Positions 1 through 35,972 of a stretch of 39,301 bases of DNA are shown piece after piece (position 1 is the stretch's first letter; each line of letters starts with the position of its first letter). Source of the DNA: a virus; IMG/VR virus record IMGVR_UViG_3300030106_001791, positions 1 to 39,301 of that record; one strand, written 5' to 3'. Position numbers and translations under genes: made by a program. The notes beneath the pieces are model-generated. The model ran no database searches and was not told the origin of the DNA. It was given only the letters and a program-made list of their open reading frames with translations.

Positions 1-133
1 ATCTAGCTTTGTACCATCAGCAGATACATCCCTTCCATCAACAGTTCCAGATGTAGCAATATTCTGACTGCCAAAATCAGGAGATATTTTAGTTCCAGCT
101 ATAGCTGCACTTGCGTTTACATCAGCATTAACA
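1..133. repeat. Left copy of the 133-bp window-end direct repeat
   Basis: Bases 1-133 match 39169-39301 except for C78 versus T39246. The copies are in the same frame of the same tail-fibre gene, as expected if a circular or concatemeric genome was cut open here. This is an assembly overlap rather than a mapped physical end. Confidence 0.85.
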
Positions 134-639
134 ATAGTTCCATCAGCTAATTGTGTTGATGTAATACTACCGACTCTTTCTAAAAATGCTTTTGTTACTG
201 CATCTTGAGCATTAGTAGGATCTGAAACATTGATTATTGGTTTGTTCTTTGCATCTTGTCCTTGCGGTGTATTTTGAATACCAAGAGCAGCTTCGTCTTT
301 AGCTTCTTGTATTCCATATAATAGCTGTAATACAGCAGTATCCAGGTCGGCAGCAGTTAAAGTCGAGCCATCCACAAAATCAACAAGAGCAGTTGTTAAT
401 GGAGTATCTCTACTGATCTCAATTGCTACTCCAGACTTAGGCGCACCAGTAGCCTCTTGCGTAGATGTAGCTGAACTAAGAGTGCTAAATTCAATAGTCG
501 TATCGTTTACAAAAGTAAAGCCAGTATTGGTTACATTATTAAGTGCGACAACAATATGATCCTTTTTAACGTATGGAAAGGGAATTGAAAATTGTTTTGT
601 ACTTCCGTTGCCAGTACCAGTAAATTGAGCAAAAGGCAT
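1..639 (-). CDS. Tail fibre protein, N-terminal part (gene continues across the window ends)
   Basis: This is the first 213 codons of the tail fibre, which attaches to the tail through its N-terminal domain and binds the host surface through its distal end. The start (MPFAQFTGTGNGSTKQFSIP) opens a T7 gp17-like N-terminal domain, including the typical DGSTLTAADLDTAVLQLL stretch. The ATG at 639-637 overlaps the TAA of the upstream gp16-like gene (TAATG), with an AGGACAGG ribosome site just before it. The frame is open to base 1. Because bases 1-133 recur at 39169-39301 in the same frame, the gene continues at 39168 and ends at 36718, giving an inferred protein of about 1029 residues. The truncation here is an artefact of where the circular map was cut. 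Confidence 0.9.
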   Translation of the reverse strand, partial: MPFAQFTGTGNGSTKQFSIPFPYVKKDHIVVALNNVTNTGFTFVNDTTIEFSTLSSATSTQEATGAPKSGVAIEISRDTPLTTALVDFVDGSTLTAADLDTAVLQLLYGIQEAKDEAALGIQNTPQGQDAKNKPIINVSDPTNAQDAVTKAFLERVGSITSTQLADGTIVNADVNASAAIAGTKISPDFGSQNIATSGTVDGRDVSADGTKLD

Positions 640-3600
640 TAACCTGTCCTAACGTCTGTGTTTACTATAGATCGCCATGCCTCGATCTGATTTGGGAAAT
701 CATTTCTTACTTGGCTTACCTTCTTATTCTTTATAACATTTAAATTTCTTTCATGCTGTAAATGAGGGTATCTATTAATCATTATTTCTCTTGCTCCTGA
801 TCTATACTCATCTATTATAGCTTTTACTGCATTTAGTTTATATAAAGTTTTAGAGTTTAATATTGCGTCACTAGGCACACCATCCTTATTAAAATTCGGG
901 TCATAATCAGGTAAACTTCTATATTCATCTGATCTAAAGTATTGTTCTAATTTTTGAGATAAATTAAGACCTTCTGCATTTGTAACTTCTTTAGCCATTA
1001 TTCGTCTAAATTCATTTAACTCCTGGTTAGACATTACATAACCTGGAATACCTAAACTATTTTTTGTACTAAATCTTGGATATGCTCCTTCTCCATGCAA
1101 CCTTGATAGCTCTTTGTATATAATTCCATTTCTCTCTTTAGTCGGTCTAAACATTGCTAAAGGATGAATGTTCATCACTAAAGCTCTTAATAAAGGATTA
1201 TTTATTCTTTCTGCACCAAAAGCATAATCATATACTTGTGGCTCTCCATAAATAGGATCAAGGTCAACTTGTCCTATACCCTCATTGCTTTGAAATCCTG
1301 GAATACCAGAAAGTATTTCTCTAGCAAGATCTATAGCAAAGCTATATGGCAGCCTTTCTCCTTTTTGGTTGGTATGCTCTCGTATTAAATATCTTTTATT
1401 ATCAAATCCTATTTTGGTTGTTCTTAATTGAGCAAGTGGCATATTTATAAATCTGGCTAATGTCATTTCAAATAAATTTCTTTTTCCTGTTTGTCCATAT
1501 CTAGAATTACCTAGATCATCTTTACTTAATTCTTGGATTAAATCTATAAAATTACCAACATTAGCCATTACGCTTTTTCTAAAGTAACCTACAGTATTTT
1601 CTTTTACAGTTGATAATAAAGCTCTGCTCATAGTAGAAGCAGCATTTTTTGCTTGGTCAAAATTATCAAAAGTATTAAAGGTATGAGCATTAGCCAGGAT
1701 AAAGCCTTCTTGTATTGTGTCGCTGTAGTTTAATTCTTCATCTGAATCAAAAGCATTATCGAAAGCATCATCCTGTGGCATCCTTTTTATAGCATCAACA
1801 TAACCGCCTACAGCACCAAAAATAAAACTAGCTGTATCAAACATATCCAAGCTATACCAATGTGACCATTCATGTGATCCTGGTATCCTAAACCTTACTG
1901 CATTTGGAGGTCTGTGCATATATCTGTTTAGTTCTCTTCTGTTTGGATTGCTAGGATCTGGACCACTAAATTCAACTAATCCTGTAGCTACAGCTCCTAT
2001 GCCTATAGCAAATAATGTTTGTGAAGTAGCTATTTCTCCTAAAGCTCTTTCTCTTTGGAATAGATCCTCAGATGTAATATCTCTCCAATATGAATCAACT
2101 ATTCTATTTGTTGGTAAAGGTAGATGACGTAAAGCTGATTTAACAAGATTAAGAGGTGTTCTGTTTGTAGGAAAAACGACTCCCATAATAGGTGCAGCTC
2201 TAGTTAAATCCTTAACCCCTTTCGAGGGCGCATTTAAAAGATTTTGACCTAACCTGTCTAGTCCGTTTTCTTCTCCGCCAATACCCAAGAAACTAGGCGC
2301 AGTAGGTTGACTAGCATCAGTAAAATAATCTAAGTTATTTTCATCATTGTCCCTTATATAAGTTTCAGCAAATTCTAAAATATCTTCTGGTTCTGTATAT
2401 CCAAGTTCTTGCGCTCTTCTTATTCCATACTCCATTGTCCTTTTATTTCTATCTACCTTAATGTCGTCAGTAAAGTTTACATAATCAATAGCTTGTCTAG
2501 CGTGAATACTATCCATAAATCCGCCTTTTATCATTGAGCCATCTGGCATTTCAACGTCAGCCATTGCCCTAGTTAATGCAGCTTCCGCCTTCTTTTGTGC
2601 TTCTGCAAAAACTCTTGGATCGTTCATGTCAAAACCAGCTTTCATTTTTAAGAAAAGCTCTTGTTCCATAAGCCTGGAATATTCATAAGCTGGTGCAACA
2701 GACATACCAACAAGTGTGTCTAGACCACTCATTATTCTTGAAGCTCCAGAAGTTGCAACCAAGCCAGCTCCCCTACCAGCTCCTTTTATACCTTTAGTTA
2801 CATAGTGAGTCATTAGAACCAAAGGATTTGTTGTTGCAGTTGTATATTTTTTAGGAACTTTTTTATCTTTACCTAACATTCTTTGCGCTTCTCCTTCTAT
2901 ATCTTGCTGGCTATACATATCAAATCTTCTTATTTTTGGCGCTTTGTTTTTACTTAATGCTGAATATGTACTATTTTCCATATAACCTTTATTAATATTT
3001 CCAAAAACTTCATCATGTTTTATAGCTGACAAAGCAAGTCTGAAAGCATTTGACGTTCCAGTAAACATTCTTAAATACATTTGTAAGTTTAATTTCTGTC
3101 TCATTTCCGCCATTTTCGCTCCTTCTATATCTCCAGCTTTTAATGCTTTTCTTTTTGTAGCGCCAGCTCCCATATATTGTGAATAAGGTAAAGTCATTGC
3201 TCTAAATAAACTGCCACCTAAAACTTTTCCTAAAGTAGAGCTGTTTAAGAATATGCCATTTCTTGCAATAGCAGCTATGTTTTCTTGTGTTAATTTTGAA
3301 GGATATACAGTATCTAAGCCTTTAGCAAAATGACTCATAAAATTATCAAATGATGCTGTTCTATCTTTATAGAGATATAAAGATTCTGCGATCATATCTA
3401 AAATAATTTGAGCATTTTGAGTTGGCTTGCCATTCATTATTGAGTTATAGTCTTTTTCATCCATTAATTTTTTAAATATATCTTCTTGTTCTAATACTGC
3501 TTTTTCAAATGTTCCTGGAATAGAAGTTTGATATGGCATATCTTGTCCTTCTATTTCCGCAGCTTTTGAGTTAATTATTATATTTGCCTGGTTTGAGTCT

Positions 3601-6600
3601 GGAACATAAATCATATCTCCTTGTTGTCCAAATTCAAATCCATCAAGTCTTACTCCTTGATATTTTTTCTTAGCTAAATAATCAAATAATACTGATTTTT
3701 GTTTTTCAGTTAATTTATCTCCTGATACAGCTCCGACTCCTTCAACATCCAGTTCTTTAAATAGTTGAGATAGCGATTTATTCTGTGATGTTAGATCTAA
3801 GATAAGCATAGTTGCTGGTACTTGACCTTCGATCACACCTCCTGTAACTCCAGGTTCACGACCTTCACTAACCGACTTGAAGTATGTACCTTTGCCAAGT
3901 CCTTTATCTTCAACCATTCCGCCCTTTTCAACTCCTTCGTTTAAGGCTTTACCTCCAGCTCCTAACCTGGGTTCTTGTATCTCAATTTTTGCGTAAGGCT
4001 CAATAAACATTTCTTGCTTACCAAGAAAGTCCATTTGTTGCATCCTTAAATATTGAGCTGAAGGTCTATTAACTTGTGCTATAGCTGTACTTATTTTCAT
4101 TGCATCTTCCCATAGACTTATTAATAATCTTTTTGAAGTTACATCTGTTGGGTTCATCTTCACATCTAGCGCTACTTGTTGCATTTGCATAACTTGTGCG
4201 TCTCTTTGCAATATGACAGCAGCTTGAGCAACTTGTCGCTGTAGAGCATTTGAATCTCCATTCATAGCTTGTTTATGTAGGTTAAATATTTCTTCTGTTC
4301 TAAAACCATTTTCCGCAACAACCCTGGATGCAAGCCTGGTAATTTCTTCTACGTTAAATGAAGGTACATTTGTAGCATCTTCTCTACTGCCAATTTGTTC
4401 AAACAAAGTATTCTCTATAGCTTTATTGTTTGCAATAAGATCAACTTGATCGGTAGGAATATAAACTTTACCTTCGGGATTTTGCCTTCTATTAATTAAT
4501 CTTCTATATAAGCCTGTCATTGCTTCTTCAATACTCATATCTCCATCACGAATAGCTGTCTTTATAGCTTCTAAATTTTCAACAAAATCATCTGGATCTA
4601 ACTCAAAACTTGCTGGTTCTGGAGCTGTATTGCCTGGCGTATTTTTAGCATAGCGGAAAGGTCTAGGAGTTCTTGTTGCTAATCTTCCTTCCTGTGCGTC
4701 TCTAAAAATATCTTTATATGTTGCAAAGCCAAAACCACTAAGTTTGTTGTTTATCTTTTCCGCTATTTCTTTGATTTTTTGAAATGGTTGAAACCATGTA
4801 GGTTTCTTAGCATAGTCAAGCTGATCGAATACTGAAAAAGCAAATGCCTGGACTTCTCTTTCGCTCAATCTTTTAGATCCAAACAAAACAGATTGAAATT
4901 TAGGATAGAAAGATGCGACTATTTCTCTTAATTGTTTATCAACTGCTGGACTATCTAGTAGTTGCTGTTCCTTAAGAGTAAGGTATCTGTCTTGTATTCT
5001 ATGAAAAGACTCATGCCTTAGTGTTTGCATCATTGATCCAAATTCTTGGAAATGGCCTTTAAAAGTCATTGCAAGAATAATTAAATCTTTTGCAGGGGTT
5101 GATCCAAACTTAAATACACCTTTAGCATTACCAGTTTTACCTATTGCACTAGGAGGCATACCATAAGCTGCTGCTGCCTTTGCACTTATTTTAGGTTTGA
5201 TAGCATCAACAAGACGTAAATTTTGGACATTTGCACCAGCTATTTCTCTAGCTATATCAACTAATTCTTGCGCTTGCTGCTCTGTAAGTAGAGTATCTAC
5301 ATATACATGATCGTTACCCATGTTTGTGTATATTTCATCTTCTAAAGAAAACTCTAATTGCTCATCATTTTTAGGATCTAACGGATCAAAATTCTTAGGA
5401 TTAGTCGAGTCTTTATATTCTTGGTTGTATTTATCCTGGAGTTTTTTATTTGCTTTTCTAATATTTTCTCTTTCTATATCTCGTAAATCTGCATCTAATT
5501 CAAAATCTGGATCATCAACTCTAGGATCTTTTTGTACATACCCACGACCATCTACATAGTTATTTCTTATGTTTACTGAACCATCTGCATTAACGCTACC
5601 TTTTTTGTTTATTGCTTCTATCATCACATCTGCGTAAGCCATTGTATTTTTTACAGAAATAACTCCATCCTTAGCGCTTGCAACTTTTAACTGTTCTTTC
5701 ATCCTCATATATGCCTTATGTCTTGATCCAGAACTAATCCCAAGCTCTTCTAAAAAAGCATTAAATTCAGCATCTTTTTTGGATTTTCCTTTCCATCTAT
5801 TACCTGTAATATAAATAGCCTTATCAATATCGTTAGCAAACTCAAGTGTATATTGACCATATCTAGGCTTTGCTGATCCAGCCCATCTAGTAGAACTAAA
5901 ATCTAAATTAGGATATTTACCTTTTAAGGTTGGAAACATTAAGTCAAAACTTATATCATTTAGTTCCTGAGCAGAATTAAACGTGTAACCTCCATCCGTC
6001 ACATACGGAAAAGTTTTTCTTTTTGTAGATGTTTGACTAGCTTTAAGTACTTCTCCAATTTTTGAATGGTTTTTATTTAAAGATCCATTATTAGCTTTTA
6101 GTTCTTCTTTAATGCTCTTTATAGATTTATCTGAATATGTATCAAGCTCTGTTTGTTCATTAATAACTTTATCTATTTGTTCGTCTGGAATAGGATCAGG
6201 TCTTTCATTATTTAATATATTTTGTGCTTTTGCATTTAACTTAGCGTCAACTTCGCTTTGTACTCTTACTGGCTCAGATGCCACCTTAGTTAAAGGAGCA
6301 TCATCTTGTCTCATAGTTGACATTATGAGATCAAAATTATCCTTTACCAACATAGTTGCTGATATTGGACCAGTTTTCATTTGCGCTGCTAATTCATTTA
6401 TTAAAGCGTTTGTGTCTGAAACTGAATAAGCTAATTCTTCAAATCTTGCAACAGCTTTTTCCGCTTCTAATTTTTTATCTATTGATTCGTCATAAGCTAT
6501 TTTATTACCTTTTATTTGCTCAATAGCAGCCTTTTTATTTTTTTGCGTTACTGCTTTTAATCCGCTTATTTTTATTCTTAGTTCTTTTAAAAATTGTTCA

Positions 6601-9308
6601 CCAATAGCTGTTATTTCTGGCAAGTTATTTTCCATTGACCATTTTTCTAGTCCAGGTAAAGTTCCTTCCGTAACAGTTTCTACTGTCCTAGTAGATGCCA
6701 GCATTATCTGTCTTATTCTGTCTCCACTAAACTTTGGATTCTTAGCGTATTTGTTGTAAACAAAATTGATTGACGTTTCACTAGCTCCTTCTACAGAGCC
6801 TAAAGCTACACCTTTATTAAAAGGCAATTCTCCAGAAGCAACTTTGTCTAATAAATATTTAGGCAATCTTGATAATTGATTACCTTCTATCATTTCCTTA
6901 CTTGTTAAAGTTATTCCTTTTGTTGCTAATTCTTCTAAAGTGTCGCCAGAACTTTGCATATATTTAGCAACGTCTAATGACGTTAACTTTCCGCCTGTTG
7001 TACTTTGAGCAAGGTTTCTTAATACTGCAATTTGTTGTGCTTCTTTTACAGTTCCAGCTTGAATAAATCGAACATCTATTTCTCCTATTCCTGATCTTTG
7101 AGCGAGGTCGAGTCTGTTGTGACCATCAACAACATAAATTTTCCCGACCTCTCCAAGTTCCCCTGTCGTGTCTCTCCAGACTGACAACAAATCTGCCAAA
7201 GTAGGATCAAAAACTTCTACATCTTTTAACGAACCACTAATACCCTTTTTGTTAATTTTGCCAGCTTCTTTTGGTTGAAATACATCTGGTCTAACAATTA
7301 TATCTGAAAGTTTTAATTTAGAAATTTCACTACTTAATGGAGCAGCCAAACCAACGCTTTGTCCTAGCTCGTTACTAAAAGTTCTATCCTCGTCAGGTCT
7401 AATTTGTGCTTGTATGTTGTTTTCTGTTTGCAAATCTTTAGCAGCATTTCCAAGCTCTTCCATCTTTTTCTTAGCTATTTTTTCTGCTTTTATAGCTTCT
7501 TTTTCTAAATCAATTTTTTGCTGCTCTGTATATCCTGTTTCCCATTCTGGTTTTCTTTGGTATTGACCATAATGCTCCTGTATATCTTTCTTAGATTTTC
7601 CATCTGGGTTGTTTATTTTTATTCTATTTGTTGGTGTTTTATCGTCATTAAGTTCTGGTATTTCTGCATCAACTTCTTCCGCTTTTTCTATTTTAGTTTT
7701 TGCGTCTAATTCATCTTGGTCTAATAATTCTTTTTGCGTTTTTTCGTAAAAAGCTCTTGCTTCTAATTCTTTTCTAATGCGATATGCGTTATCTATAGCA
7801 GCATTAGCTAATTTCCATCTTGCTAAATAAGTAACTAATGGCTCTATAACTCTTGCTTGAGTTGTATCTATAAGAGAAGCTAGTGTATTTTTTGCTAAAG
7901 CATATCCGTAATCTTGAGCTGTCTTTGCATTTATACTGTTATCCAGTAAAGACATTTGCGAATATCTGCCTGGATTAAGTCCTGGAAAAGTTCCTTTTGT
8001 AAATCCAATTCCGAATTTTGTTGGTGTAGATATTGCTTTACCTCCAGCTCCAAAAGCAATTCCCATAGGTATTCCGTTAATAATTTCATTAACGAATATA
8101 GATTTTAGTTTTGCTTCAATATAGTTATCTTCTAATCTTCCGTTATTGTTTATAGCGTCTGGCAACAAGTTATCTGCTAAGGAGGGTTGGTATGGATCGC
8201 CTATTAATGTTTCAGCTATAAGAGAGTTTCTTGCTCCTTGTATTCCTTCTTTTATAAGAAATTTTGAAACATTAGTTACTCTTGGCATATTGCCTGTCAT
8301 CCAAGCAACTGCTCTAGCAAATTGTGGAGATCCAGCTTTTGCCTTATTAAATACGTTAGCTGCATATACATATTCGTCTGGAAGTCCAGGAGTTAAAACT
8401 TTAGCAGCAGCAAAAGTTAGAAAGAAAGGAGCTGCTTCTCCAGCAAACGTAACGGAAAAATCTGCTACTGGTCTGCCTGTATCTCTTACTGGAAAACCTC
8501 CAACAACCTCGTCCAAAGACTTACCTTCGCCAAGCAATAATCCCCAATTCTCTCCACTTAATCTATCCGACCCATCCATAGGATCGTATGCTGAAATATC
8601 TTTAACCGCAAAAGGGTCTTCCCCTTCCATTAAATCTTTATATAATGTGCCAGGACTAGATCTCATTGCACCAGTTTCCATAGCTTCTAAAATGCTCATT
8701 CTGGCTTCTTTGCCACCTAATTCTTTAAGAAAAGCCATAAAACTTTTTTGATCTATCCCTGCTTTTAGTGCTTTTATTTGTAAAGCTGTTGCGCCTACTG
8801 GATCTCCTGACAATAATTCAGCCATATAGCCAGGCATATCTTGTCTTAATGCGTCATTAACAGTATTAGTTAAGCCGACAGTACCGCTAATAACACCTCT
8901 ATCTGCTATACGAAAAAGATCACCTAAGCTATTTCTTAATCTATGCTGCCCTCTTAATTCTTCTGGTGCATATTCTCCACCATAATCTTTAGAGAAAATA
9001 TTTAATTTGTCATATAGTCCTAAAAATGGTGTAGATGTTTTTGTGTCTTTTCGCCCTGGTTCTTTATTTATTTTTTCTATGTAATATTGATCTGATTCAA
9101 TTTCATCTTGATTTTTAATCTTTGGATTAAAATTATTTGGCTCTACTTCTAAAGACTCATCAATTAACGTCTTGTCATCTTCACTATAGTTTTCATTACC
9201 AAGCTGATTTCTTTTAAGCTGTTCTAGTTTTTCAATAATTTTAGAACTAGCTAAAAGCGTACCTTCAGTACCTCCTGGGTTAGCTGCATCTAGTAAACTG
9301 TCTGTCAT
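639..9308 (-). CDS. Giant gp16-like internal virion (DNA ejection) protein with embedded enzyme-like domains
   Basis: At 2889 residues this is more than twice the length of T7 gp16 (about 1300). Its place, last of the core genes just before the tail fibre, is that of gp16, which is ejected into the cell and helps DNA cross the envelope. No N-terminal transglycosylase motif is apparent. Roughly residues 663-790 look ParB-like (VVDGHNRLDLAQRSG). Residues 1432-1436 are HESFH, an HExxH zinc-peptidase motif, with a possible third ligand Glu near 1484 in a REVQAFAF stretch. Residues about 1775-1920 (GKGTYF, then YQGVRLDGFEFGQQGDMIYV) resemble ADP-ribosyltransferase-fold domains. The last 900 residues are helix-rich with small hydrophobic patches, as in gp16 C-terminal regions. 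The stop of the gp15-like gene directly abuts this ATG. The virion role is inferred from position and size; enzyme activities are inferred from motifs only. Confidence 0.85.
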   Translation of the reverse strand: MTDSLLDAANPGGTEGTLLASSKIIEKLEQLKRNQLGNENYSEDDKTLIDESLEVEPNNFNPKIKNQDEIESDQYYIEKINKEPGRKDTKTSTPFLGLYDKLNIFSKDYGGEYAPEELRGQHRLRNSLGDLFRIADRGVISGTVGLTNTVNDALRQDMPGYMAELLSGDPVGATALQIKALKAGIDQKSFMAFLKELGGKEARMSILEAMETGAMRSSPGTLYKDLMEGEDPFAVKDISAYDPMDGSDRLSGENWGLLLGEGKSLDEVVGGFPVRDTGRPVADFSVTFAGEAAPFFLTFAAAKVLTPGLPDEYVYAANVFNKAKAGSPQFARAVAWMTGNMPRVTNVSKFLIKEGIQGARNSLIAETLIGDPYQPSLADNLLPDAINNNGRLEDNYIEAKLKSIFVNEIINGIPMGIAFGAGGKAISTPTKFGIGFTKGTFPGLNPGRYSQMSLLDNSINAKTAQDYGYALAKNTLASLIDTTQARVIEPLVTYLARWKLANAAIDNAYRIRKELEARAFYEKTQKELLDQDELDAKTKIEKAEEVDAEIPELNDDKTPTNRIKINNPDGKSKKDIQEHYGQYQRKPEWETGYTEQQKIDLEKEAIKAEKIAKKKMEELGNAAKDLQTENNIQAQIRPDEDRTFSNELGQSVGLAAPLSSEISKLKLSDIIVRPDVFQPKEAGKINKKGISGSLKDVEVFDPTLADLLSVWRDTTGELGEVGKIYVVDGHNRLDLAQRSGIGEIDVRFIQAGTVKEAQQIAVLRNLAQSTTGGKLTSLDVAKYMQSSGDTLEELATKGITLTSKEMIEGNQLSRLPKYLLDKVASGELPFNKGVALGSVEGASETSINFVYNKYAKNPKFSGDRIRQIMLASTRTVETVTEGTLPGLEKWSMENNLPEITAIGEQFLKELRIKISGLKAVTQKNKKAAIEQIKGNKIAYDESIDKKLEAEKAVARFEELAYSVSDTNALINELAAQMKTGPISATMLVKDNFDLIMSTMRQDDAPLTKVASEPVRVQSEVDAKLNAKAQNILNNERPDPIPDEQIDKVINEQTELDTYSDKSIKSIKEELKANNGSLNKNHSKIGEVLKASQTSTKRKTFPYVTDGGYTFNSAQELNDISFDLMFPTLKGKYPNLDFSSTRWAGSAKPRYGQYTLEFANDIDKAIYITGNRWKGKSKKDAEFNAFLEELGISSGSRHKAYMRMKEQLKVASAKDGVISVKNTMAYADVMIEAINKKGSVNADGSVNIRNNYVDGRGYVQKDPRVDDPDFELDADLRDIERENIRKANKKLQDKYNQEYKDSTNPKNFDPLDPKNDEQLEFSLEDEIYTNMGNDHVYVDTLLTEQQAQELVDIAREIAGANVQNLRLVDAIKPKISAKAAAAYGMPPSAIGKTGNAKGVFKFGSTPAKDLIILAMTFKGHFQEFGSMMQTLRHESFHRIQDRYLTLKEQQLLDSPAVDKQLREIVASFYPKFQSVLFGSKRLSEREVQAFAFSVFDQLDYAKKPTWFQPFQKIKEIAEKINNKLSGFGFATYKDIFRDAQEGRLATRTPRPFRYAKNTPGNTAPEPASFELDPDDFVENLEAIKTAIRDGDMSIEEAMTGLYRRLINRRQNPEGKVYIPTDQVDLIANNKAIENTLFEQIGSREDATNVPSFNVEEITRLASRVVAENGFRTEEIFNLHKQAMNGDSNALQRQVAQAAVILQRDAQVMQMQQVALDVKMNPTDVTSKRLLISLWEDAMKISTAIAQVNRPSAQYLRMQQMDFLGKQEMFIEPYAKIEIQEPRLGAGGKALNEGVEKGGMVEDKGLGKGTYFKSVSEGREPGVTGGVIEGQVPATMLILDLTSQNKSLSQLFKELDVEGVGAVSGDKLTEKQKSVLFDYLAKKKYQGVRLDGFEFGQQGDMIYVPDSNQANIIINSKAAEIEGQDMPYQTSIPGTFEKAVLEQEDIFKKLMDEKDYNSIMNGKPTQNAQIILDMIAESLYLYKDRTASFDNFMSHFAKGLDTVYPSKLTQENIAAIARNGIFLNSSTLGKVLGGSLFRAMTLPYSQYMGAGATKRKALKAGDIEGAKMAEMRQKLNLQMYLRMFTGTSNAFRLALSAIKHDEVFGNINKGYMENSTYSALSKNKAPKIRRFDMYSQQDIEGEAQRMLGKDKKVPKKYTTATTNPLVLMTHYVTKGIKGAGRGAGLVATSGASRIMSGLDTLVGMSVAPAYEYSRLMEQELFLKMKAGFDMNDPRVFAEAQKKAEAALTRAMADVEMPDGSMIKGGFMDSIHARQAIDYVNFTDDIKVDRNKRTMEYGIRRAQELGYTEPEDILEFAETYIRDNDENNLDYFTDASQPTAPSFLGIGGEENGLDRLGQNLLNAPSKGVKDLTRAAPIMGVVFPTNRTPLNLVKSALRHLPLPTNRIVDSYWRDITSEDLFQRERALGEIATSQTLFAIGIGAVATGLVEFSGPDPSNPNRRELNRYMHRPPNAVRFRIPGSHEWSHWYSLDMFDTASFIFGAVGGYVDAIKRMPQDDAFDNAFDSDEELNYSDTIQEGFILANAHTFNTFDNFDQAKNAASTMSRALLSTVKENTVGYFRKSVMANVGNFIDLIQELSKDDLGNSRYGQTGKRNLFEMTLARFINMPLAQLRTTKIGFDNKRYLIREHTNQKGERLPYSFAIDLAREILSGIPGFQSNEGIGQVDLDPIYGEPQVYDYAFGAERINNPLLRALVMNIHPLAMFRPTKERNGIIYKELSRLHGEGAYPRFSTKNSLGIPGYVMSNQELNEFRRIMAKEVTNAEGLNLSQKLEQYFRSDEYRSLPDYDPNFNKDGVPSDAILNSKTLYKLNAVKAIIDEYRSGAREIMINRYPHLQHERNLNVIKNKKVSQVRNDFPNQIEAWRSIVNTDVRTG

Positions 9309-12188
9309 CTAATCTCCTAGCACTCCGCTCAGTTGCCATGCCTCTATCTTATCTAATACTTCTGCGTATGTCTCCAATCCATTTAAACTATCTAAAAATG
9401 GTTGTATTTCTCCCCAATTTTGTAGCTCTTTAGGAATAGACGGATGACTCCAGTTAATACTAAAAGTCGGAGGATTTGTGTCATGCCTAGTAACAGCTTC
9501 AGAATATTCCGAGTTTGTAAATATAGAACCTCTAACCTGATCGTTAATTAAATCTCCAAACCTACCATTATATTTATCAGAAAGTTGACCTATTTCAAAT
9601 AAAACTTCTAATCCTTTTTGTGATTTTTTAAAAGAATTATTAAATCTTTTTGTTAAATTTTTAATTTCTTTTTTTGCATTTGCTTCTCCTTTTTCTGCTA
9701 ACAAATCTTTATATGCTTCACTTTCTGTATCAAGCAATTGCCTGTAAAGGCTAATATCGTCATAAGTAGTCTCTCCACTAAATAAAATATTTTTTACAAA
9801 CTGAATACTGCCTTTACTGTTTAAAAAGTATGGGTTAGGAGCATTTAAATGATTTACAAATTCGTAATTGTCCATACCAGGCATTATTTGATTAACATCA
9901 ATTTTATCTAATTTAGCTATAAGGTTTTTATTACTTCCATTTACAGGACCATATTCATTTTCAACAAATCCAAGTTCGTTAGTGTCTGAAGGATAAAAGA
10001 AATTTTTGCCAAGACTCTTATCTACATCTATGTCATAATCTTCTTTCATTATTTCTGCAAACGTGCCATTCTGTATATCTAGTTGTACCTTTTCCATTAA
10101 CTCTTTTCCTGTAACTATTCCGTCTTTAGAAGCGCTTACCATGTCGCTATACGTCTTAGTAAGGTAACTGTTTATTGCGCTTTTGTGCATCCCCCATTCA
10201 GCATATCCGTCTTTTTGTGCAGAAGGGTTTTTATCATATACTGCACCATCAAAGGCAACTTTTAATTTGGCACTAACTTCATCTATTGCATTTTTTGTTT
10301 CTCCTTTTACAATGTCGTTGTATTTAGTAATCATACCTTTCGTTCTTTCGTAGTTGTTAACCAAAGTCTGTCCATAAATTCCATTCATATTGGCATAATT
10401 AGCCATAAAAATTCGACATTGTTTTGAACTTTTAGTACCACTACCAATACAGTCATATAATTCTCCTTCTAATTGTTTAACATCATTAGCAAATTCTGTA
10501 CCAGTTAAACCATAAGCTAAATCTACTAAAGCATTTTTTCTTGCATCGTCTAATAATTTTCTTTGAGCTATTTTATCGCTTGGGCTTAAATTAGCATTAT
10601 TGTTTATTTTTTCTAATTCATTTTTGTAATTAGTTTCGATGAGATCTCTTGCCTTTTTATATGCAAATCTTACATTAGCGTCTGCTTGAACTACTCCTGG
10701 AGTACCTTCGCTATTGTATTCAGTTAAAGCGTCTTTTATATTTACCTCTTTTCCATCTACTTCAATCGTTAAGTCCTCCATTCCTTTCGTTAAGTTTGTA
10801 GAAAATTCAGTTTTTTGTGAAGTTTTATTGGCTCTGTTTAAATTATCTCTATCATTTACAATTTGTTCAACTTGATTTCTTAAGTAAGATGTACCTCCAA
10901 GACTATTAATCCAGGCTTGTTTTGGATTAATTCTTGTTACTCCGTCTATTGTTTCGTATCTACTATTATGTGGACCAATAGCAATACCAGGAAAATCCTC
11001 TGTACCAAGAACTAAATTTGAAAATTCTTCGTAAAGAGAGTCAGCGTCTAAATTGTTATACAAAGGATTACGAGCTAAATTTTCCCAAATCAATGTGTAC
11101 ATTTTTGCTTCTGACTCTTTTGAAAGGTTTAACTTTCTTATATTTGCTATTATTTTTCCAATTGATTCATTTAATTGACTAGCTGTTTGGTTAGGCTTTT
11201 CAAGTAAATTAATATTAGAAACTATTTCTGCCTGTCCTAATTGCGTAGTTTTTTCTAAATAATTTTTTAGTTGGCTCGACCTGTCATTCATTCTGTGTTG
11301 CAAAATTTGCGGTTGCAAATTGTTATGCTCAAAAATTCCTAACTTAGTATTTTTATATATAAATTCGTTATATGCTTTTTTGTACCTTGCGTCACTAGGA
11401 TCTAGTTCAGCTAAAGATACTTGTTCATAAATAGGAGTTACACCATCACTTTCAAATTCTAGTTCTCCTTTTTGGTTGCGAGCCTGTATTGGTTGTCCTG
11501 TATTCTCATCTATTGCGTCAACAGTTTCGTTTAATTTATATGTATCCCATTGAGTTAAATTATCTAAAACTTGTCGCTCATTTGATAAAGAAGTAATTGT
11601 ATTTCTTAATCGTCTATTGCTTTCTATCTCTTGTAAAATCTTTTTTGCATCTTCTATCTCTTGAGTTTTCTCTAAAGTAATTTTTTGCTCACCTTCGGCC
11701 TCAATAGGTTGTTCTACTATTTTTTTTAATTGATTTATAGTTGCTTGTAACTTGTCTGACGGATTAATTTCCTGACCATCATAACCAGTTTGATATGTGT
11801 CAAGAATTTTTGCAGCTTCTAGATTAAGAACACCTTGCTCTTTGATCCTTGCATCTGTATATGCACCAGGTAATTGGTCAAGCTCTCCTTTTACAGTTTT
11901 AAAAGAATCAAGCCAAGCGCCAAACTCATTTGATTTAGCTTTTTTAGTATCATCATAAAAGCCTTCTACACTTGGCAGATCAAGTGTAGGTACTAGCTTT
12001 GGTTCAGTAGGAGTCGAATAAGTTTGTCCATACCATTTAAAATTTTGTATTTGCGGAGTTTTAAATGATAAATCTACCTGGCTAACGTCTCCAGTAGATT
12101 GACCAGTAGCAAGTTGACTTCGCTTTTGGTTTCCTTTTTTCTTGGGTTCTGCATCCCCTTGAGTGTAATTTAGTTTTTGTCTTGCCAT
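9309..12188 (-). CDS. gp15-like internal virion protein
   Basis: This 959-residue, mostly helical, charged protein lies between the gp14-like and gp16-like genes. It is the expected homologue of T7 gp15 (internal virion protein C), a core protein that forms the periplasmic part of the DNA-ejection tube. The N-terminus is hydrophilic (MARQKLNYTQGDAEPKKKGN), with no signal peptide or membrane segment. Long Glu/Lys/Gln-rich helical stretches run through residues 90-350. The start ATG at 12188 overlaps the stop of the preceding gene by one base (TAATG), and its own TAG touches the next ATG, so gp14-, gp15- and gp16-like genes are translationally linked. The size is somewhat above T7 gp15 (about 750). 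The assignment rests mainly on gene order and length. Confidence 0.8.
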   Translation of the reverse strand: MARQKLNYTQGDAEPKKKGNQKRSQLATGQSTGDVSQVDLSFKTPQIQNFKWYGQTYSTPTEPKLVPTLDLPSVEGFYDDTKKAKSNEFGAWLDSFKTVKGELDQLPGAYTDARIKEQGVLNLEAAKILDTYQTGYDGQEINPSDKLQATINQLKKIVEQPIEAEGEQKITLEKTQEIEDAKKILQEIESNRRLRNTITSLSNERQVLDNLTQWDTYKLNETVDAIDENTGQPIQARNQKGELEFESDGVTPIYEQVSLAELDPSDARYKKAYNEFIYKNTKLGIFEHNNLQPQILQHRMNDRSSQLKNYLEKTTQLGQAEIVSNINLLEKPNQTASQLNESIGKIIANIRKLNLSKESEAKMYTLIWENLARNPLYNNLDADSLYEEFSNLVLGTEDFPGIAIGPHNSRYETIDGVTRINPKQAWINSLGGTSYLRNQVEQIVNDRDNLNRANKTSQKTEFSTNLTKGMEDLTIEVDGKEVNIKDALTEYNSEGTPGVVQADANVRFAYKKARDLIETNYKNELEKINNNANLSPSDKIAQRKLLDDARKNALVDLAYGLTGTEFANDVKQLEGELYDCIGSGTKSSKQCRIFMANYANMNGIYGQTLVNNYERTKGMITKYNDIVKGETKNAIDEVSAKLKVAFDGAVYDKNPSAQKDGYAEWGMHKSAINSYLTKTYSDMVSASKDGIVTGKELMEKVQLDIQNGTFAEIMKEDYDIDVDKSLGKNFFYPSDTNELGFVENEYGPVNGSNKNLIAKLDKIDVNQIMPGMDNYEFVNHLNAPNPYFLNSKGSIQFVKNILFSGETTYDDISLYRQLLDTESEAYKDLLAEKGEANAKKEIKNLTKRFNNSFKKSQKGLEVLFEIGQLSDKYNGRFGDLINDQVRGSIFTNSEYSEAVTRHDTNPPTFSINWSHPSIPKELQNWGEIQPFLDSLNGLETYAEVLDKIEAWQLSGVLGD

Positions 12189-13081
12189 TAAATTACCTCA
12201 AAATCTACGTCTAATTTACTGTAATCAACAGCTAAATAGCCATTAATTCTTGAAATAGCATCAGGTCTGCTAGTAACCAGATCATGTGCCATTACCCCTC
12301 GATAACGTGTTCCAGGGTCATTCTTATAATTAAATTCATAAATTGGATAACCTTTCGGAGATTCGCCTGTTCTAACTATATTTTCTTTAAGTCTTATGTC
12401 ACTACCTTGTGGAGTATTAGCTTTAATTACAGCTTGGTTAGCTTTAACACCATAGTAAGTGTTAAATCCGCCAACAACAGCACCAGCCATACCAAGTGCG
12501 TATGGACCAAAACTAGGCTTGGGTATGCGTAGTGGTTTAACAGGATCAAGATAGGTTTTCTTGAGATATGTTCTAGCAGATCCTCTTCGAGCTGCACGAT
12601 CAGATTGTGCATCAAGTCTCTGCGTTTGTGATCCTTTAAGCGCAAATGCAGCATTTCTATTTGTCACAAAATCGGCTGCTGCTCTCGATCTTTCTATCTC
12701 AGCTAAAAGAGTCCAGGCATTTTGTCCAATACGTTGTGATGCTACTTCTCCTTTTTTTTGTAATGCTTGTTTTCCTCTCTCTGTTTGTTCTTGCGCTCTT
12801 TGTTCTTGTATCTGTTGCTGCTCCATAGTAATCCTGGTCGAATCTCTTTCATAAGCCAGGTCAGCCATAAATTCTGTATGTTGTATAAAATCCTCATTCA
12901 TCTGATTCCTAACATCTTCGGTCATTCTGTTTGATTGCGTCTGCAATAATTGACTTTGATAATTAAGATTATTTTGTGCATTTTGAAAAGCAACATTAGA
13001 TTTAGCTTGTTGATAAGCCATAAACTGTTGCCCTACTCCCAGGACTCCAGAAATTACTCCTAACGTAACTGCTTCACACAT
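12188..13081 (-). CDS. gp14-like internal virion protein with C-terminal S74 (endosialidase-chaperone-like) domain
   Basis: The 297-residue product begins MCEAVTLGVISGVLGVGQQF, a short hydrophobic segment followed by a long Gln-rich helical region (residues 25-165). This is the pattern of T7 gp14, the core protein thought to form the outer-membrane part of the ejection channel. A second Gly/Ala-rich hydrophobic stretch lies at about 192-212. Residues 227-297 (SDIRLKENI, IYEFNYK, YRGVMAHDL, GYLAVDYSKLDVDF) match the core of the S74 intramolecular chaperone domain found at the ends of tail spikes. Ser227 and Lys232 sit in the usual SDxRLK motif. The gene lies 3 nt after the gp13-like gene. Self-cleavage of the C-terminal domain is possible but not shown. 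Confidence 0.82.
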   Translation of the reverse strand: MCEAVTLGVISGVLGVGQQFMAYQQAKSNVAFQNAQNNLNYQSQLLQTQSNRMTEDVRNQMNEDFIQHTEFMADLAYERDSTRITMEQQQIQEQRAQEQTERGKQALQKKGEVASQRIGQNAWTLLAEIERSRAAADFVTNRNAAFALKGSQTQRLDAQSDRAARRGSARTYLKKTYLDPVKPLRIPKPSFGPYALGMAGAVVGGFNTYYGVKANQAVIKANTPQGSDIRLKENIVRTGESPKGYPIYEFNYKNDPGTRYRGVMAHDLVTSRPDAISRINGYLAVDYSKLDVDFEVI

Positions 13082-13084
13082 TAG

Positions 13085-13579
13085 TTAAACCTTAGCAAAT
13101 TCATAAAAAGGACGACCCTCATACCCAAATGTAGCGTGTTCTTTGATGATTGAGAAACCCATGTACTTAATCCATTTTACATGAGTTGTATTTCTTGCAT
13201 CTACATAATTAAATAATATCGGAAAATTCATTTTAAATTTATCTAATTCTATTGGAGAATTGCGAAGAAAAGCTCTTACATCTTTATAATCAGTAGTCAT
13301 AGTTCTATGGCCTAGCATCCATATTTTTCCCATATTTTTCCTAATTGGAATTACTCCATACATACCCATAATATTTCCTTTACGACCTACCATAGTCATG
13401 CAAGGTTGACTTCCAAAATAACAATATATAAGACTACTTTTTGGATCTGCTCCAGAATATGCGTATATTTCTTCTATATCTTCTTGTCTCATATTAGAGG
13501 CAACTTCTATTACATCATTGGGAGTTGACTTTCTCCAATGAAATTTACCTATATTCGTCTTGCTCTGCTGTGTAACCAT
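13085..13579 (-). CDS. gp13-like / acetyltransferase-fold virion-associated protein
   Basis: This protein sits exactly where T7 gene 13 lies, between tail tube B and the gp14-like gene. The conserved region begins FHWRKSTPNDVIEVASNMRQ, and the body (CMTMVGRKGNIMGMYGV, WMLGHRTM, NYVDARNTTHVKWIKYMGF) has the pattern of a GNAT-like fold, with a C-terminal NxxHxKWIKxxGF stretch. The likely role is virion morphogenesis rather than catalysis. The start is uncertain: I chose the ATG at 13579 (164 residues), which overlaps tail tube B by 31 nt. An ATG at 13609 would add 10 residues but has no better ribosome site. The only purine-rich sequence, GGGAAGG, lies immediately before 13579 and is too close to be ideal. 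Confidence 0.72.
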   Translation of the reverse strand: MVTQQSKTNIGKFHWRKSTPNDVIEVASNMRQEDIEEIYAYSGADPKSSLIYCYFGSQPCMTMVGRKGNIMGMYGVIPIRKNMGKIWMLGHRTMTTDYKDVRAFLRNSPIELDKFKMNFPILFNYVDARNTTHVKWIKYMGFSIIKEHATFGYEGRPFYEFAKV

Positions 13580-16212
13580 CCTTCCCATTCTGCTGATTGA
13601 ATACGACAAGGTAGTGGGCTATCACTCAAAATCTCAACTTTTGTGTCGTTATTTTGAGCCATAACTGGCACTTTAAATTTACCTGTTAAGAAAGGTGCTT
13701 GACCTAACGCTGGAGGATTTTGACCTATTACAAATCCATTATAAGGGTAAGTGAAAGAAGATCTACCTCTTGGACTAACTTTTACTTTAAATGCACTTGT
13801 ATCGTCAAACACAAACGTCCAGGTTCTAATTTGTAATCGTGGACCAGCTATGACAGCAACACCACCCCCTGCTGGTTGCTCCTTAAGATAAGGAGTACTA
13901 AATTCATACGTCATATCATAAAGCTCTCCTACAAAAAACTTGGCATTACTTAAGTCTCCAAGTACTGTCATAGTTCCATTACCGCTAAATCCAGATTGAG
14001 TTGCGCCAGTTAATGTCTCTGAACTAGCTGTTAAAACTTGACCATGTTGAATTGTATTACCGCTAACGTCTCGACCTACAACAGCTTGTATTCCTGTAGT
14101 AGCTGTTGGATATGGCAAAGAAATTACTGATTGAACACCAGCTCCACCCTGGTTAATGACATTGACATGACATTGAGTTTCATCTACTTTTCTGTCTAAT
14201 TTAATTTCAAGATTACTGTTAGGATCAGTTGCTTCTGGACGTAAAGAACATTTTTCTAGGTAAACTCCATCCGTATATTGTATTACAAAAAATACATCAC
14301 TATCTATAATCGTTGAGCCAAGAACAGTTTTAGCTCCTTTAACTTCCCAAAACGACCAAGAAGACTGAAGTTTTTCATCTTCCTCGTAAAAGAATTTATA
14401 AAAATAAATACGTTTCGGTTCGTCTTTGCTAATAGCTATTATCGTTTCTTCTGAAGCGCTACTTACTAAGCTGACTATATTCTTAGGTAAGTATCTTGGA
14501 ACTGCGGAAGATACTTCTTCTGATATTGGAACTGCACCTGTAACATCTTCCAGGTAAAAGTCACGCAAACCACTAAATTCTCCTTTAGGTATTGAAAAAT
14601 ATACTGTTCGACCAACTGCAATAGGATCAACATTAGGCTCTGTTTCGTATGTCGTTATTGCTGTAATAGTTGCTGTTTGAGGAGTCAATGCACCTCCAAT
14701 GCCAACTGCACCAGCATCTAATCTAAACTGACCATGCCGACTAAACAGTAGCAATGTGTTTGCAAATGCCAAACTAGATGTTAGAAAATGAATTTCCGTA
14801 CCGCCTGTAACTAGATCAATAGGGTCACTATCTACAATTGTTTGTACTGTCTCAGGAAAAAATCTATCATAACTGTCTGACGCACTCATTATTACGTTTT
14901 CATCTGCTAAGAATACAAGCCTATTTCTAAAAGTATTAATGTTATTTAGAACAGTACCTACAAAAGTAGGAGTAGGAGCTGTAACTAAATCGCCAGCTAT
15001 TCGTGGACTGTAATCAAATTCTTTAAATGTAAATGTACCAGTAGCAGCATCACGCACTAAAACGTGTGGCATAGTTGACGTATTAAATTTAAAAGGTTCT
15101 AATGGACCAACTGTTTCTCTCCATATTCCAAAACCAAAATCTGTACCATTTGAAGTTTCAAACTTAACATAATAATCGTCTAGCCTTGTAGTTTTTGTTC
15201 CCTGGACTTTGACAATAAAATTGTTTTCACACAAAGTTGGCAAGTCATTAATCGTATCTATTGCACCCCTAATAGCTTTTGTATAAGTTCCAGCTTTAGT
15301 ATCACTACTTTCTAAAATAAAATCAGTATCGTCATTTCTTTCGATCCTAATAATGTATTGATCTTGAGTAAACGTCCAGCCACTAGATAGCGCAGAAGCT
15401 AAATCATTTCTTAAATCAGACGCAATTGTAGCTGAGTTAGGAACTGCTCCCCCTGCGGATGCTGTTGTAAAACTTGCTGTTGCTAAAGTGCTAGTTCCAG
15501 CAGCGTTTTTTATTTTTATTTCATAAGTAGTTGCATAGTCAGCAGCTTTTATAAATACAATACCTTTGCGTGAAACATCAGGAGATAATTCATTAAATCT
15601 ACAATTTCCGCTAGTAGTTGCAGAAGCACCAACCAATGTAAAACTGTTGGCATTTACAACAGTTGCGGTATAAGTACCATCGACACTATTTCCAGTTTCA
15701 AAATCTATTTGTATTTTTGCTCCATTAGTTAATCCATGATTGTTAGAGGTAACAGTTATTGTTGTCCCTGACTGACTATAAGTACCAGCGTGATCCATAG
15801 TGACCACTTTTTCTCTGTTTAATATAAACGTATAATCTGCAACTGACGCTATTCTAAATTTTTCTGAAGGATCAGCGTTATTTGCAATATCTAAATAATT
15901 TATTCCGTTAGGAGTTGAAACAGTTTGAGAAGTACCATCTAAATTAAATACCTCTATAGCTCCATCCCTAATCATAATTAGATATTGTATAGTTCCGTCT
16001 CTATCAACAGCCTTTATAAATGGTTTACCTGTTCCAGCAGAACCGCTAATTAATTTTTTTATATGCTGAAAAGGTGGGCGCTTAGTTAATCCTTCAACTG
16101 GAGAAGATAAACAATTTATAACTGATTCTGCTTGTGAAGCTAGTCTTAACGCTGAGGGTTGCTGACTAACCCCATTAATCATATTTGGGATAGCGCTAGT
16201 AATTAATGCCAT
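13549..16212 (-). CDS. Tail tube protein B (T7 gp12-like nozzle protein)
   Basis: The 887-residue product starts MALITSAIPNMINGVSQQPS, with LTKRPPF near residue 45, the standard opening of podoviral gp12 proteins that form the hexameric tail nozzle. It is somewhat longer than T7 gp12 (794). Part of the extra length is an insertion at residues about 143-206 (YSQSGTTITVTSNNHGL, ending near NANSFTLVGAS). That insertion resembles a small beta-rich module found in other phage structural proteins. The C-terminus (LPCRIQSAEWEGWLHSRARRI) is also typical. The gene starts 2 nt after the tail tube A stop, and its 3' end overlaps the gp13-like gene. Confidence 0.93.
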   Translation of the reverse strand: MALITSAIPNMINGVSQQPSALRLASQAESVINCLSSPVEGLTKRPPFQHIKKLISGSAGTGKPFIKAVDRDGTIQYLIMIRDGAIEVFNLDGTSQTVSTPNGINYLDIANNADPSEKFRIASVADYTFILNREKVVTMDHAGTYSQSGTTITVTSNNHGLTNGAKIQIDFETGNSVDGTYTATVVNANSFTLVGASATTSGNCRFNELSPDVSRKGIVFIKAADYATTYEIKIKNAAGTSTLATASFTTASAGGAVPNSATIASDLRNDLASALSSGWTFTQDQYIIRIERNDDTDFILESSDTKAGTYTKAIRGAIDTINDLPTLCENNFIVKVQGTKTTRLDDYYVKFETSNGTDFGFGIWRETVGPLEPFKFNTSTMPHVLVRDAATGTFTFKEFDYSPRIAGDLVTAPTPTFVGTVLNNINTFRNRLVFLADENVIMSASDSYDRFFPETVQTIVDSDPIDLVTGGTEIHFLTSSLAFANTLLLFSRHGQFRLDAGAVGIGGALTPQTATITAITTYETEPNVDPIAVGRTVYFSIPKGEFSGLRDFYLEDVTGAVPISEEVSSAVPRYLPKNIVSLVSSASEETIIAISKDEPKRIYFYKFFYEEDEKLQSSWSFWEVKGAKTVLGSTIIDSDVFFVIQYTDGVYLEKCSLRPEATDPNSNLEIKLDRKVDETQCHVNVINQGGAGVQSVISLPYPTATTGIQAVVGRDVSGNTIQHGQVLTASSETLTGATQSGFSGNGTMTVLGDLSNAKFFVGELYDMTYEFSTPYLKEQPAGGGVAVIAGPRLQIRTWTFVFDDTSAFKVKVSPRGRSSFTYPYNGFVIGQNPPALGQAPFLTGKFKVPVMAQNNDTKVEILSDSPLPCRIQSAEWEGWLHSRARRI

Positions 16213-16214
16213 AA

Positions 16215-16823
16215 CTACCTAGATAAAGCGTCAGAGGGTCTATAAGTTCTCATTGGGTTTACTCTTCGGTTATGCCCTCTAAGAATATTGTGATCGCTTA
16301 ATTGTGTTTCTTCTTCTAAAAATTGCGATCTAACTTCTTGCTCAACCAGTAAATTTATTTCGGTCAAATCTTTACTACCAATCATAGACTCCTGGAGTTC
16401 TCTTCCAGTTTTAGTCATTATGTAAACCCTAGCGTGTTCTGGTAGGTCTTCCCAATCTAGGATGACAGTTATATCCGCAGCTAAGTCTTGTTTAAATTCG
16501 TATGTATTACTTTTACGATCATACAGCCTTGATCCTCTTTGAACTACATCTACATCTGGATAGTCATAAGGATCGACATAAACTCTGCTGACGTTAGTAC
16601 CAACTGAAATTTGATTTGTTGTTGAATCTCTTATTAAAGTAACTTCATAGTCAGTATTAAAAGACCAACCTTCAGTTTGCAACTTACGACTAACACTATT
16701 AATTGTAGTTTCTGCTAAGTTACCTAAGCCAAATAAACCCTGCAAAGAGTTAACAGGAGCTTCTCCCATCATTTGCAAGGCTTTATTGACCGCTTCTAAT
16801 TTTGAAGTTCTAGCAAGTGCCAT
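16215..16823 (-). CDS. Tail tube protein A (T7 gp11-like adaptor)
   Basis: The 202-residue size matches T7 gp11 (196). The N-terminus (LEAVNKALQMMGEAPVNSL), then LQTEGWSFNTDYEVTLIRD, and a late SDHNILRGHNRR stretch are hallmarks of the gp11/gp4-like tail adaptor ring that joins portal to nozzle. The ATG directly abuts the stop of a 23-residue basic peptide gene, and the stop is 2 nt from tail tube B, so the three are likely co-translated. It lies downstream of the hairpin that follows the capsid gene, as gene 11 does in T7. Confidence 0.95.
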   Translation of the reverse strand: MALARTSKLEAVNKALQMMGEAPVNSLQGLFGLGNLAETTINSVSRKLQTEGWSFNTDYEVTLIRDSTTNQISVGTNVSRVYVDPYDYPDVDVVQRGSRLYDRKSNTYEFKQDLAADITVILDWEDLPEHARVYIMTKTGRELQESMIGSKDLTEINLLVEQEVRSQFLEEETQLSDHNILRGHNRRVNPMRTYRPSDALSR

Positions 16824-16895
16824 TTACTTTTTCTTAGTACCTTTTTTTGGAGGTCGTCCAACTTTTGTACCATAAGTTCCTTTACCTTTAGGCAT
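16824..16895 (-). CDS. Small basic peptide (23 aa)
   Basis: The complete product is MPKGKGTYGTKVGRPPKK followed by GTKKK, so nearly half its residues are Lys or Arg. Very similar short MPKGKGTYG..VGRPPKK peptides occur, as I recall, near structural genes of marine phages, which supports it as a real gene despite its size. It abuts tail tube A without a gap (TAA then ATG) and lies 8 nt beyond a strong hairpin following the capsid gene. A nucleic-acid-binding or virion role would fit the charge, but no function is known to me. Confidence 0.6.
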   Translation of the reverse strand: MPKGKGTYGTKVGRPPKKGTKKK

Positions 16896-16903
16896 AATAA
16901 TAA

Positions 16904-16921
16904 GGGAGTAAGTTTACTCCC
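16904..16921 (-). terminator. Hairpin after the capsid gene (T-phi-like terminator candidate)
   Basis: A perfect 8-bp stem (GGGAGTAA / TTACTCCC) with a 2-nt loop lies 13 bases past the capsid stop. In the transcribed direction it is followed by TTATTATTATG, a T-rich but interrupted tail. T7 has its class III terminator at this same position between genes 10 and 11, where partial termination keeps capsid mRNA high and tail-tube mRNA lower. That role is inferred here; an RNA-processing or stabilising hairpin is the alternative. Confidence 0.65.
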
Positions 16922-16934
16922 CTATATTAACTAC

Positions 16935-33247: not shown

Positions 33248-33335
33248 TAAAGCGGAAGTCACAACTGACTCTCCCGATCTCCCAAGAGAAATTACTATTA
33301 CACCCGAAATGGTTGAGGAGTTCCAAAACAAATAG
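33204..33335 (+). CDS. Small protein between portal and scaffold (43 aa)
   Basis: The frame (MQPSPTSATSQPPLSKAEVT, then EITITPEMVEEFQNK) starts 44 nt inside the portal gene with GGAGAG/AAGGAA upstream, and ends 6 nt before the scaffold ATG, filling the gap exactly. It is Pro/Ser/Thr-rich at the front with an acidic end. It could be a minor scaffold partner or only a coupling frame. Confidence 0.45.
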   Translation: MQPSPTSATSQPPLSKAEVTTDSPDLPREITITPEMVEEFQNK

Positions 33336-33341
33336 ATTATT

Positions 33342-34554: not shown

Positions 34555-34560
34555 GATTTA

Positions 34561-35970: not shown

Positions 35971-35972
35971 GG

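Follow-up and report, generated by a model that had tools for sequence, protein, structure and literature searches.

RESULTS

A giant gene lies at the ejection-protein locus of a marine T7-like phage

Does a giant protein encoded at the gp16 position of a small marine phage work as an ejection protein, and are the ParB-like, zinc peptidase and ADP-ribosyltransferase (ART)-like segments that an initial annotation read in it three enzymes delivered into the host? The gene was found in an IMG/VR virus record of a small marine T7-like phage of ~39 kb, the whole stretch of 39,301 nucleotides being referred to here as the window. The initial annotation had placed the open reading frame exactly (639-9308, 2889 residues) and had left unsaid that it lies on the minus strand. 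The strings quoted from the protein are all present, namely, DGHNRLDLA starting at D728, HESFH at residues 1432 to 1436, GKGTYF (Y1809, F1810) and DGFEFGQQGDMIYV (D1898). The protein is 2.2 times as long as the 1318-residue T7 gp16, in agreement with the stated length of more than twice that protein (PMC8954989).

The genes are ordered as major capsid, gp11, gp12, gp13-like, gp14, gp15, giant gene and fibre, and the genes for TerL, a T7-type RNA polymerase, a primase-helicase, an exonuclease and endonuclease I are also recognisable around the giant gene. As seen in Table 1, a gp14-type gene (T7_gp14, 39.6 bits against a cut-off of 27) and a candidate for gp15 precede the giant gene, and the tail fibre gene, which occupies window positions 1 to 639 and resumes at the right end, adjoins it. 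With gp14- and gp15-type genes preceding the giant gene and the tail fibre gene following it, the gp16 position is sound. A match to Peptidase_S74 (endosialidase chaperone), a domain whose usual place is in tail fibres, was also seen at the C terminus of the gp14-type protein, at 22.1 bits with a cut-off of 22.

Table 1. Features of the giant protein and the neighbouring ejection-protein genes, in window coordinates
Feature	Residues or size	Window	Strand	Basis
Putative giant internal virion (ejection) protein in gp16 position	2889 aa	639..9308	-	Open reading frame, gene order, homologue P-SCSP1g ULF49719.1
gp15-position protein, tunnel-protein candidate	959 aa	9309..12188	-	Position and size only
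gp14-type internal virion protein	297 aa	12188..13081	-	Pfam T7_gp14 PF24072
N-terminal region, poorly conserved	1-640	7389..9308	-	No recognised domain
ParB module: ParB/Srx-type core with DGHNR, then ParB-type HTH	655-1000	6309..7346	-	Profile matches
DGHNR motif	728-732	7113..7127	-	Motif conservation
Variable linker after ParB module	1001-1324	5337..6308	-	Low conservation across relatives
Zincin-type metallopeptidase module	1325-1560	4629..5336	-	Alignments, AlphaFold2, VIA-align, BFVD
HESFH	1432-1436	5001..5015	-	H, E and H shared by 71/71 distinct relatives
E1485, predicted third zinc ligand, second C-terminal helix	1485	4854..4856	-	Conserved in 71/71
Conserved segment, function unassigned	1561-1767	4008..4628	-	Conservation, dN/dS
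ART fold, predicted catalytically degenerate	1768-1918	3555..4007	-	AlphaFold2, VIA-align, motif table, PARP Pfam in relatives
gp16/internal virion protein D-type C-terminal region	1935-2889	642..3506	-	hhalign, tblastn with relative L050

The capsid-to-fibre block is inverted relative to that of the cyanopodovirus P-SCSP1g, with portal and scaffold on the plus strand and capsid to fibre on the minus strand (window 1-17921 and 34303-39301 against 31520-34124). An assembly inversion was ruled out, since the identical order recurs in six other contigs (L003, L007, L008, L011, L015 and L089); the inversion is therefore a feature of the clade and not a misassembly. The two ends of the window, 1-133 and 39169-39301, share 133 overlapping bases that differ at a single position, within the fibre gene, which makes it likely that the record holds a whole genome of about 39.17 kb. 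An ArdA-type antirestriction protein is encoded at 23233-23811 on the plus strand (PF07275, E 5.5e-17, 63 bits against a cut-off of 27). No family A DNA polymerase (PF00476) was found in the whole record; the MPP-C cyanopodoviruses are likewise reported to be without one.

Relatives of the giant protein were collected by two routes. By tblastn of phage records, matches were obtained with 17 Prochlorococcus P-SCSP1 isolates (29% identity, E ~1e-123) and with the fosmid phage MedDCM-OCT-S31-C1. An alignment search of IMG/VR gave 259 relatives, of which 80 were kept (given here as L numbers), and a separate ART search added further loci; motif counts were made on distinct modules (78 for ParB and 71 for the peptidase, the latter spanning the columns in question). 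The window's own protein had no significant match in Pfam or NCBIfam, the whole protein had no useful match in the PDB, and relatives L014 and L083 had none in Pfam. In the 2022 paper on the P-SCSP1 isolates (ISME J.), the large genes were only speculated to encode internal virion proteins and were called unannotatable (PMC9860041), and the cryo-EM paper on P-SCSP1u models the portal, adaptor, nozzle, fibre and capsid and makes no mention of an internal core.

The C-terminal region is related to internal virion protein D

The view of the initial annotation that this is a gp16-type protein is borne out by both the gene order and the C-terminal homology. Residues 1935 to 2889 aligned with internal virion protein D of the Pelagibacter phage HTVC011P over 460 columns (hhalign probability 99.1, E 7.3e-19), and relative L050 matched, by tblastn, the corresponding part of proteins annotated as internal virion proteins in phages of Roseobacter, Pelagibacter, Synechococcus and Desulfovibrio. 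PHROG_6651, named "internal virion protein," was matched by HTVC011P and by 6 of 20 relatives. A search of the PDB with the C-terminal profile gave no direct match to T7 gp16, with no chain at E<=5. On the strength of this homology and of its locus, the giant protein is very probably a gp16-type ejection protein, which would be present in the virion and injected.

T7 gp16 carries an N-terminal lytic transglycosylase (PMC8954989). No lytic transglycosylase (SLT) match was found anywhere in the genome or in 20 relatives, and none of the three genes for ejection proteins (window 639-13081) had a recognisable peptidoglycan hydrolase. Since this enzyme is not universal in gp16-like proteins, the P22-type gp16 being without it (PMC8954989), its absence speaks against a place in the T7-type subset only. 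Between the peptidase and ART modules, residues 1561 to 1767 have the lowest dN/dS of the protein (0.03 to 0.05 in the near clade). A second HExxH string, HEWSH at about residue 2479, was judged to be due to chance, since it is limited to the closest relatives and is absent from L015.

The ParB and peptidase motifs are conserved among relatives

The ParB module is the best-conserved region of the protein family. The motif [D/N]GHN[R/Q] was found in all 78 distinct modules (NGHNR in 61, DGHNR in 16 and NGHNQ in 1), so that [D/N]GHNR, with Asp or Asn at the end of strand 2 and a conserved Arg, holds in 77 of 78. An Asp/Asn and an Arg are also given for DdrB-like ParB proteins by Iyer 2017 (PMC5512222), and they fit [D/N]GHNR. 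The ParB-module profile matched six sequences in the PDB, all of them ParB/Spo0J, with coverage of the core and the HTH (best E 0.0026), while HTH_ParB (PF17762) and the ParB-like PHROG_6218 were each matched in 3 relatives (best 4.7e-4 and 3.4e-5, respectively), which upholds the ParB-like reading of the initial annotation. The window protein also matched PHROG_21, at profile positions 1011 to 1182 (E 1.4e-19), as did every scanned relative at its ParB module. A portal identity, as the name of PHROG_21 would imply, was rejected, since the match is confined to its C-terminal, ParB-containing positions (~1011-1351). As judged from these motifs and profiles, it is reasonably likely that the module binds or nicks DNA.

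The ParB module was also observed in other large proteins. In L082:8630-20539, it is fused to a 3969-residue tape measure protein (TMP_3, E 1.3e-29) that also has an M23 peptidase, and in Ruegeria phage 45A6 (L123), it is part of a protein of ~3900 residues with DNA methyltransferase matches.

The zinc peptidase with a downstream Glu claimed by the initial annotation was likewise recovered. All 71 distinct modules that span the columns of H1432, E1433, H1436 and E1485 have these four residues, and in an alignment of 42 rows, the only invariant columns are those four catalytic residues and one Gly. HESFH as a chance HExxH was accordingly rejected; because their motifs are kept in 71/71 and 78/78 distinct modules, respectively, neither HESFH nor DGHNRLDLA is a chance string. 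The AlphaFold2 model of the module (pLDDT 84, pTM 0.82) has the order of elements of a zincin, an N-terminal helix, three strands and two C-terminal helices, with the HExxH and the downstream Glu in model helices 106-124 and 166-175, the latter holding E1485. Foldseek against the PDB gave weak, nonsignificant E-values. VIA-align lists re-examine the Foldseek candidates, so that families missing from them are uninformative; their top rows for the peptidase model were all zincins, led by lethal-factor/PPEP (M34-type) structures, with a Z of 6.7 and an rmsd of 4.4 over 148 residues, although Z values of 6.5 to 6.7, as obtained for both the peptidase and the ART, are of a size that chance arrangements can also give, and the fold matches are modest. 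The fold assignments therefore draw their weight from the agreement among the rows and from the conserved motifs. Among the viral predicted structures of BFVD, the best match, to a "large polyvalent protein," had an E of 4.4e-6, and several were named "large polyvalent protein associated." Iyer 2017 linked the polyvalent MPTases to the same lethal-factor superfamily (PMC5512222).

Given its invariant active site and the predicted model, the zinc peptidase is likely to be active. As for its target, self-cleavage is preferred, because the catalytic set is fully invariant and because Iyer 2017 argues for self-cleavage in P1 DdrB and gives it as one option for N4 (PMC5512222); that the peptidase acts mainly on its own chain nonetheless falls a little short of an even chance.

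The ART fold is kept but lacks its canonical His in the window clade

The ART-like segment of the initial annotation stood as a fold but not as an active enzyme. The AlphaFold2 model of this module is of moderate confidence (pLDDT 74.6), and its VIA-align rows comprise MbcT, the diphtheria-toxin type, NatT, ParT and PARPs, with a Z of up to 6.5 and an rmsd of 4.4 over 127 residues, again within the chance range. Pfam PARP was matched in relatives, at best at 6.7e-5 among 20 relatives and at 1e-5 in L113. However, no His occurs in window residues 1768 to 1810, and the strand-1 His is absent throughout the window clade. The Glu column of the motif is M1899 in the window and Met or Ile in the clade, with D1898 one residue before. 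The catalytic sets among distinct domains were H-Y-E in 18 (L033 and L113 among them) and K-Y-E in 15 (the P-SCSP1 clade), against E-Y-M or V-Y-I in the window clade, and all 18 relatives with the ART His keep the Glu too. Y1809 is invariant, and D1898, which is kept in the window clade, opens strand 5 of the model. In the tree, the 12 members of the window clade form a single, fully supported group, and a few other full losses occur elsewhere; the long branches make positions in the tree uncertain.

The absence of the His is certain, while the alignment of the acid, with D1898 preceding M1899, is not beyond doubt. The domain nevertheless has a dN/dS of 0.04 to 0.06 in the near clade, as low as that of ParB, indicating strong purifying selection. 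Going by these residues, the ART of the window phage is likely to be a pseudo-ART and not a canonical catalyst, and its fold has most likely been kept for binding or as a structural part rather than as a canonical NAD+-dependent modifying enzyme. Three fully active enzymes were therefore rejected as the default, because the His is missing in the whole clade. The anatomy of three enzyme-like modules holds, but "three enzymes" was an overstatement, since two modules look active and the third is probably a pseudo-ART. That homologues should lose the motif residues had been named in advance as evidence against the annotation, and such loss was seen for the ART and not for the ParB and peptidase motifs.

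Modules are lost, relocated and exchanged among relatives

The peptidase module is entirely missing in some relatives (L059, L065 and L076), and the ART is missing in a large group of them. A module swap was also observed in L059:8900-15127, where an H-Y-E ART directly follows the ParB module, in the usual place of the peptidase. In the window protein, the peptidase segment (residues ~1281-1520, window 4749-5468) is 82 to 85% identical to that of L015 and 76 to 86% identical to those of the near relatives L003 and L006, whereas the rest of the protein is mostly 90% or more identical to L003/L006 and about 65% identical to L015; dN and dS agree with this pattern. The pattern is evidence of recombination, by which the window clade and the lineage of L015 appear to have exchanged the segment.

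DISCUSSION

The gene position, the C-terminal homology, the identities of the three modules, the conservation or loss of their catalytic residues and the purifying selection on them were observed here, and with them we propose that in this T7-like marine phage the giant protein is an ejection protein of the gp16 type that has grown by taking up modules of polyvalent proteins. We infer that it is located in the virion and ejected. By analogy with T7 and N4 (PMC8954989, PMC5512222), it would be part of the core inside the head and would leave together with the DNA or before it, and its C-terminal region would help to build the inner-membrane or cytoplasmic part of the ejectosome. The ParB module may then bind, and possibly nick, DNA, either the incoming phage end or the host chromosome; the zinc peptidase would most likely cut its own polypeptide, or else a virion or host partner, freeing modules once they are delivered; and the pseudo-ART fold may serve binding or structure. 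That the protein acts in this way seems to us quite probable. Weighing against it are the failure to recognise a peptidoglycan hydrolase, the modest fold scores, the lack of a significant Pfam match for the window protein itself, the C-terminal profile search of the PDB that gave no T7 gp16 chain, and the P-SCSP1u cryo-EM paper with its silence on an internal core.

An anti-defence action of the delivered modules, as the initial annotation had suggested, may be put forward as a hypothesis by analogy. A more specific scheme is one of self-processing delivery, in which the zinc protease would cut the ejection protein once it has passed through the conduit and free both a nuclease of the ParB type and a pseudoenzyme derived from an ART, the latter binding NAD+/ADP-ribose or some partner in the host, so blunting defence before phage transcription, and in which the ParB cassette would be a mobile module grafted onto unrelated DNA-path proteins (gp16, tape measure and portal); this scheme is speculative, and in its entirety we consider it unlikely.

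The order gp14-gp15-gp16-fibre, the adjoining T7_gp14 match and the homology of the C terminus to several annotated internal virion proteins make it very unlikely that the protein is not ejected and instead belongs to the head or tail as a large component encoded at the gp16 locus, even though internal virion protein D of HTVC011P is itself annotated by inference. An alternative, in line with the initial annotation, holds that all three modules are active effectors and that the ART uses noncanonical residues, for example, D1898 as in H-Y-D, with some other residue doing the work of the His. The strong purifying selection on the domain, the invariant Y1809, the clade-conserved D1898 at the start of strand 5 and the H-Y-D configuration that Iyer 2017 described for polyvalent ARTs (PMC5512222) are all consistent with such an enzyme, but the clade has no conserved His at the motif, and its Met/Ile stands where the His-bearing relatives keep Glu, so that we regard this alternative as improbable.

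The modules might instead be mainly structural, forming an enlarged core or ejectosome scaffold. ParB would then hold the packaged DNA, the peptidase would act in virion maturation ahead of release, and neither would serve as an effector in the host. The presence of the ParB module in other DNA-path virion proteins (the tape measure protein of L082 and the portal-named PHROG) argues for this, as does the solved pre-ejectosome of cyanophage A4, in which an ART-fold stretch is an ordered part; P1 DdrB, moreover, is cut before packaging (PMC5512222). However, the modules are swapped, relocated and lost among relatives, and the peptidase segment was apparently exchanged by recombination, a behaviour that fits arms-race modules better than scaffold parts. 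A mainly structural role is thus somewhat unlikely.

MPP-C cyanopodoviruses and their kin are reported to be abundant in the ocean. Their large ejection-locus genes, published as unannotated, gain a testable anatomy of what is intact (the peptidase and the ParB motif) and what is not (the ART, in the window clade), and the natural series of H-Y-E, K-Y-E and fully lost sets across relatives makes the question of enzyme or scaffold directly testable. Polyvalent proteins are likewise extended to T7 gp16-type ejection proteins.

Among known systems, T7 gp16 resembles the window protein in gene position, and in a role that is inferred, and differs from it in being shorter and in having none of the ParB, peptidase and ART modules. 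Coliphage N4 virion RNA polymerase, with an MPTase, and the vRNAP of Roseovarius Plymouth podovirus 1 (RPP1), with an ART, are also giant ejected podovirus proteins (PMC5512222); their core is an RNA polymerase, whereas the window protein is without a polymerase part and has a gp16-type C terminus instead. The kinship with polyvalent proteins proposed by the initial annotation is supported, since the phage-type members described in Iyer 2017 (PMC5512222) are likewise large multidomain proteins that combine ParB, MPTase and ART in one polypeptide and are encoded among the late genes of portal-terminase phages. The window protein differs from them in being built into a T7 gp16-type ejection protein, and the text of Iyer 2017 mentions neither gp16 nor internal virion proteins (PMC5512222). 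LPD (large polyvalent protein-associated) Pfam domains, which are not a required feature, were found in neither the window protein nor 20 relatives.

The closest counterparts are in marine phages. P-SCSP1g ULF49719.1 and its sister isolates, which are MPP-C cyanopodoviruses, share the gene position and the order ParB, peptidase, ART and C-terminal region, with all three motif regions recognisable at 29% identity; ULF49719.1, annotated as "hypothetical protein," differs in having 2563 residues and an ART in which Lys replaces the His and the Glu is kept. BAQ94395.1 of MedDCM-OCT-S31-C1 has ParB and HESWH peptidase modules at an ejection-protein locus and differs in its length of 1484 residues, in having no ART and in being followed by a separate large gene; the 1484-residue protein of this phage is BFVD A0A6S4PA15, named in UniProt "Large polyvalent protein associated domain-containing protein." ORF27 of cyanophage A4 (Anabaena phage A-4L), a giant ejection-locus protein of 1717 residues, is not detectably homologous to the window protein in the ParB, peptidase or C-terminal regions, and it carries an ART-fold stretch at residues 1419 to 1599 with the motif HGT..GTYF. 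A chain of the solved A4 pre-ejectosome (PDB 9k3a_B) is identical to ORF27, and this stretch thus offers a structural precedent for ART folds in ejection proteins. Together with the family of the window protein, the A4 structure suggests that ART folds are recurrent in podovirus ejectosomes.
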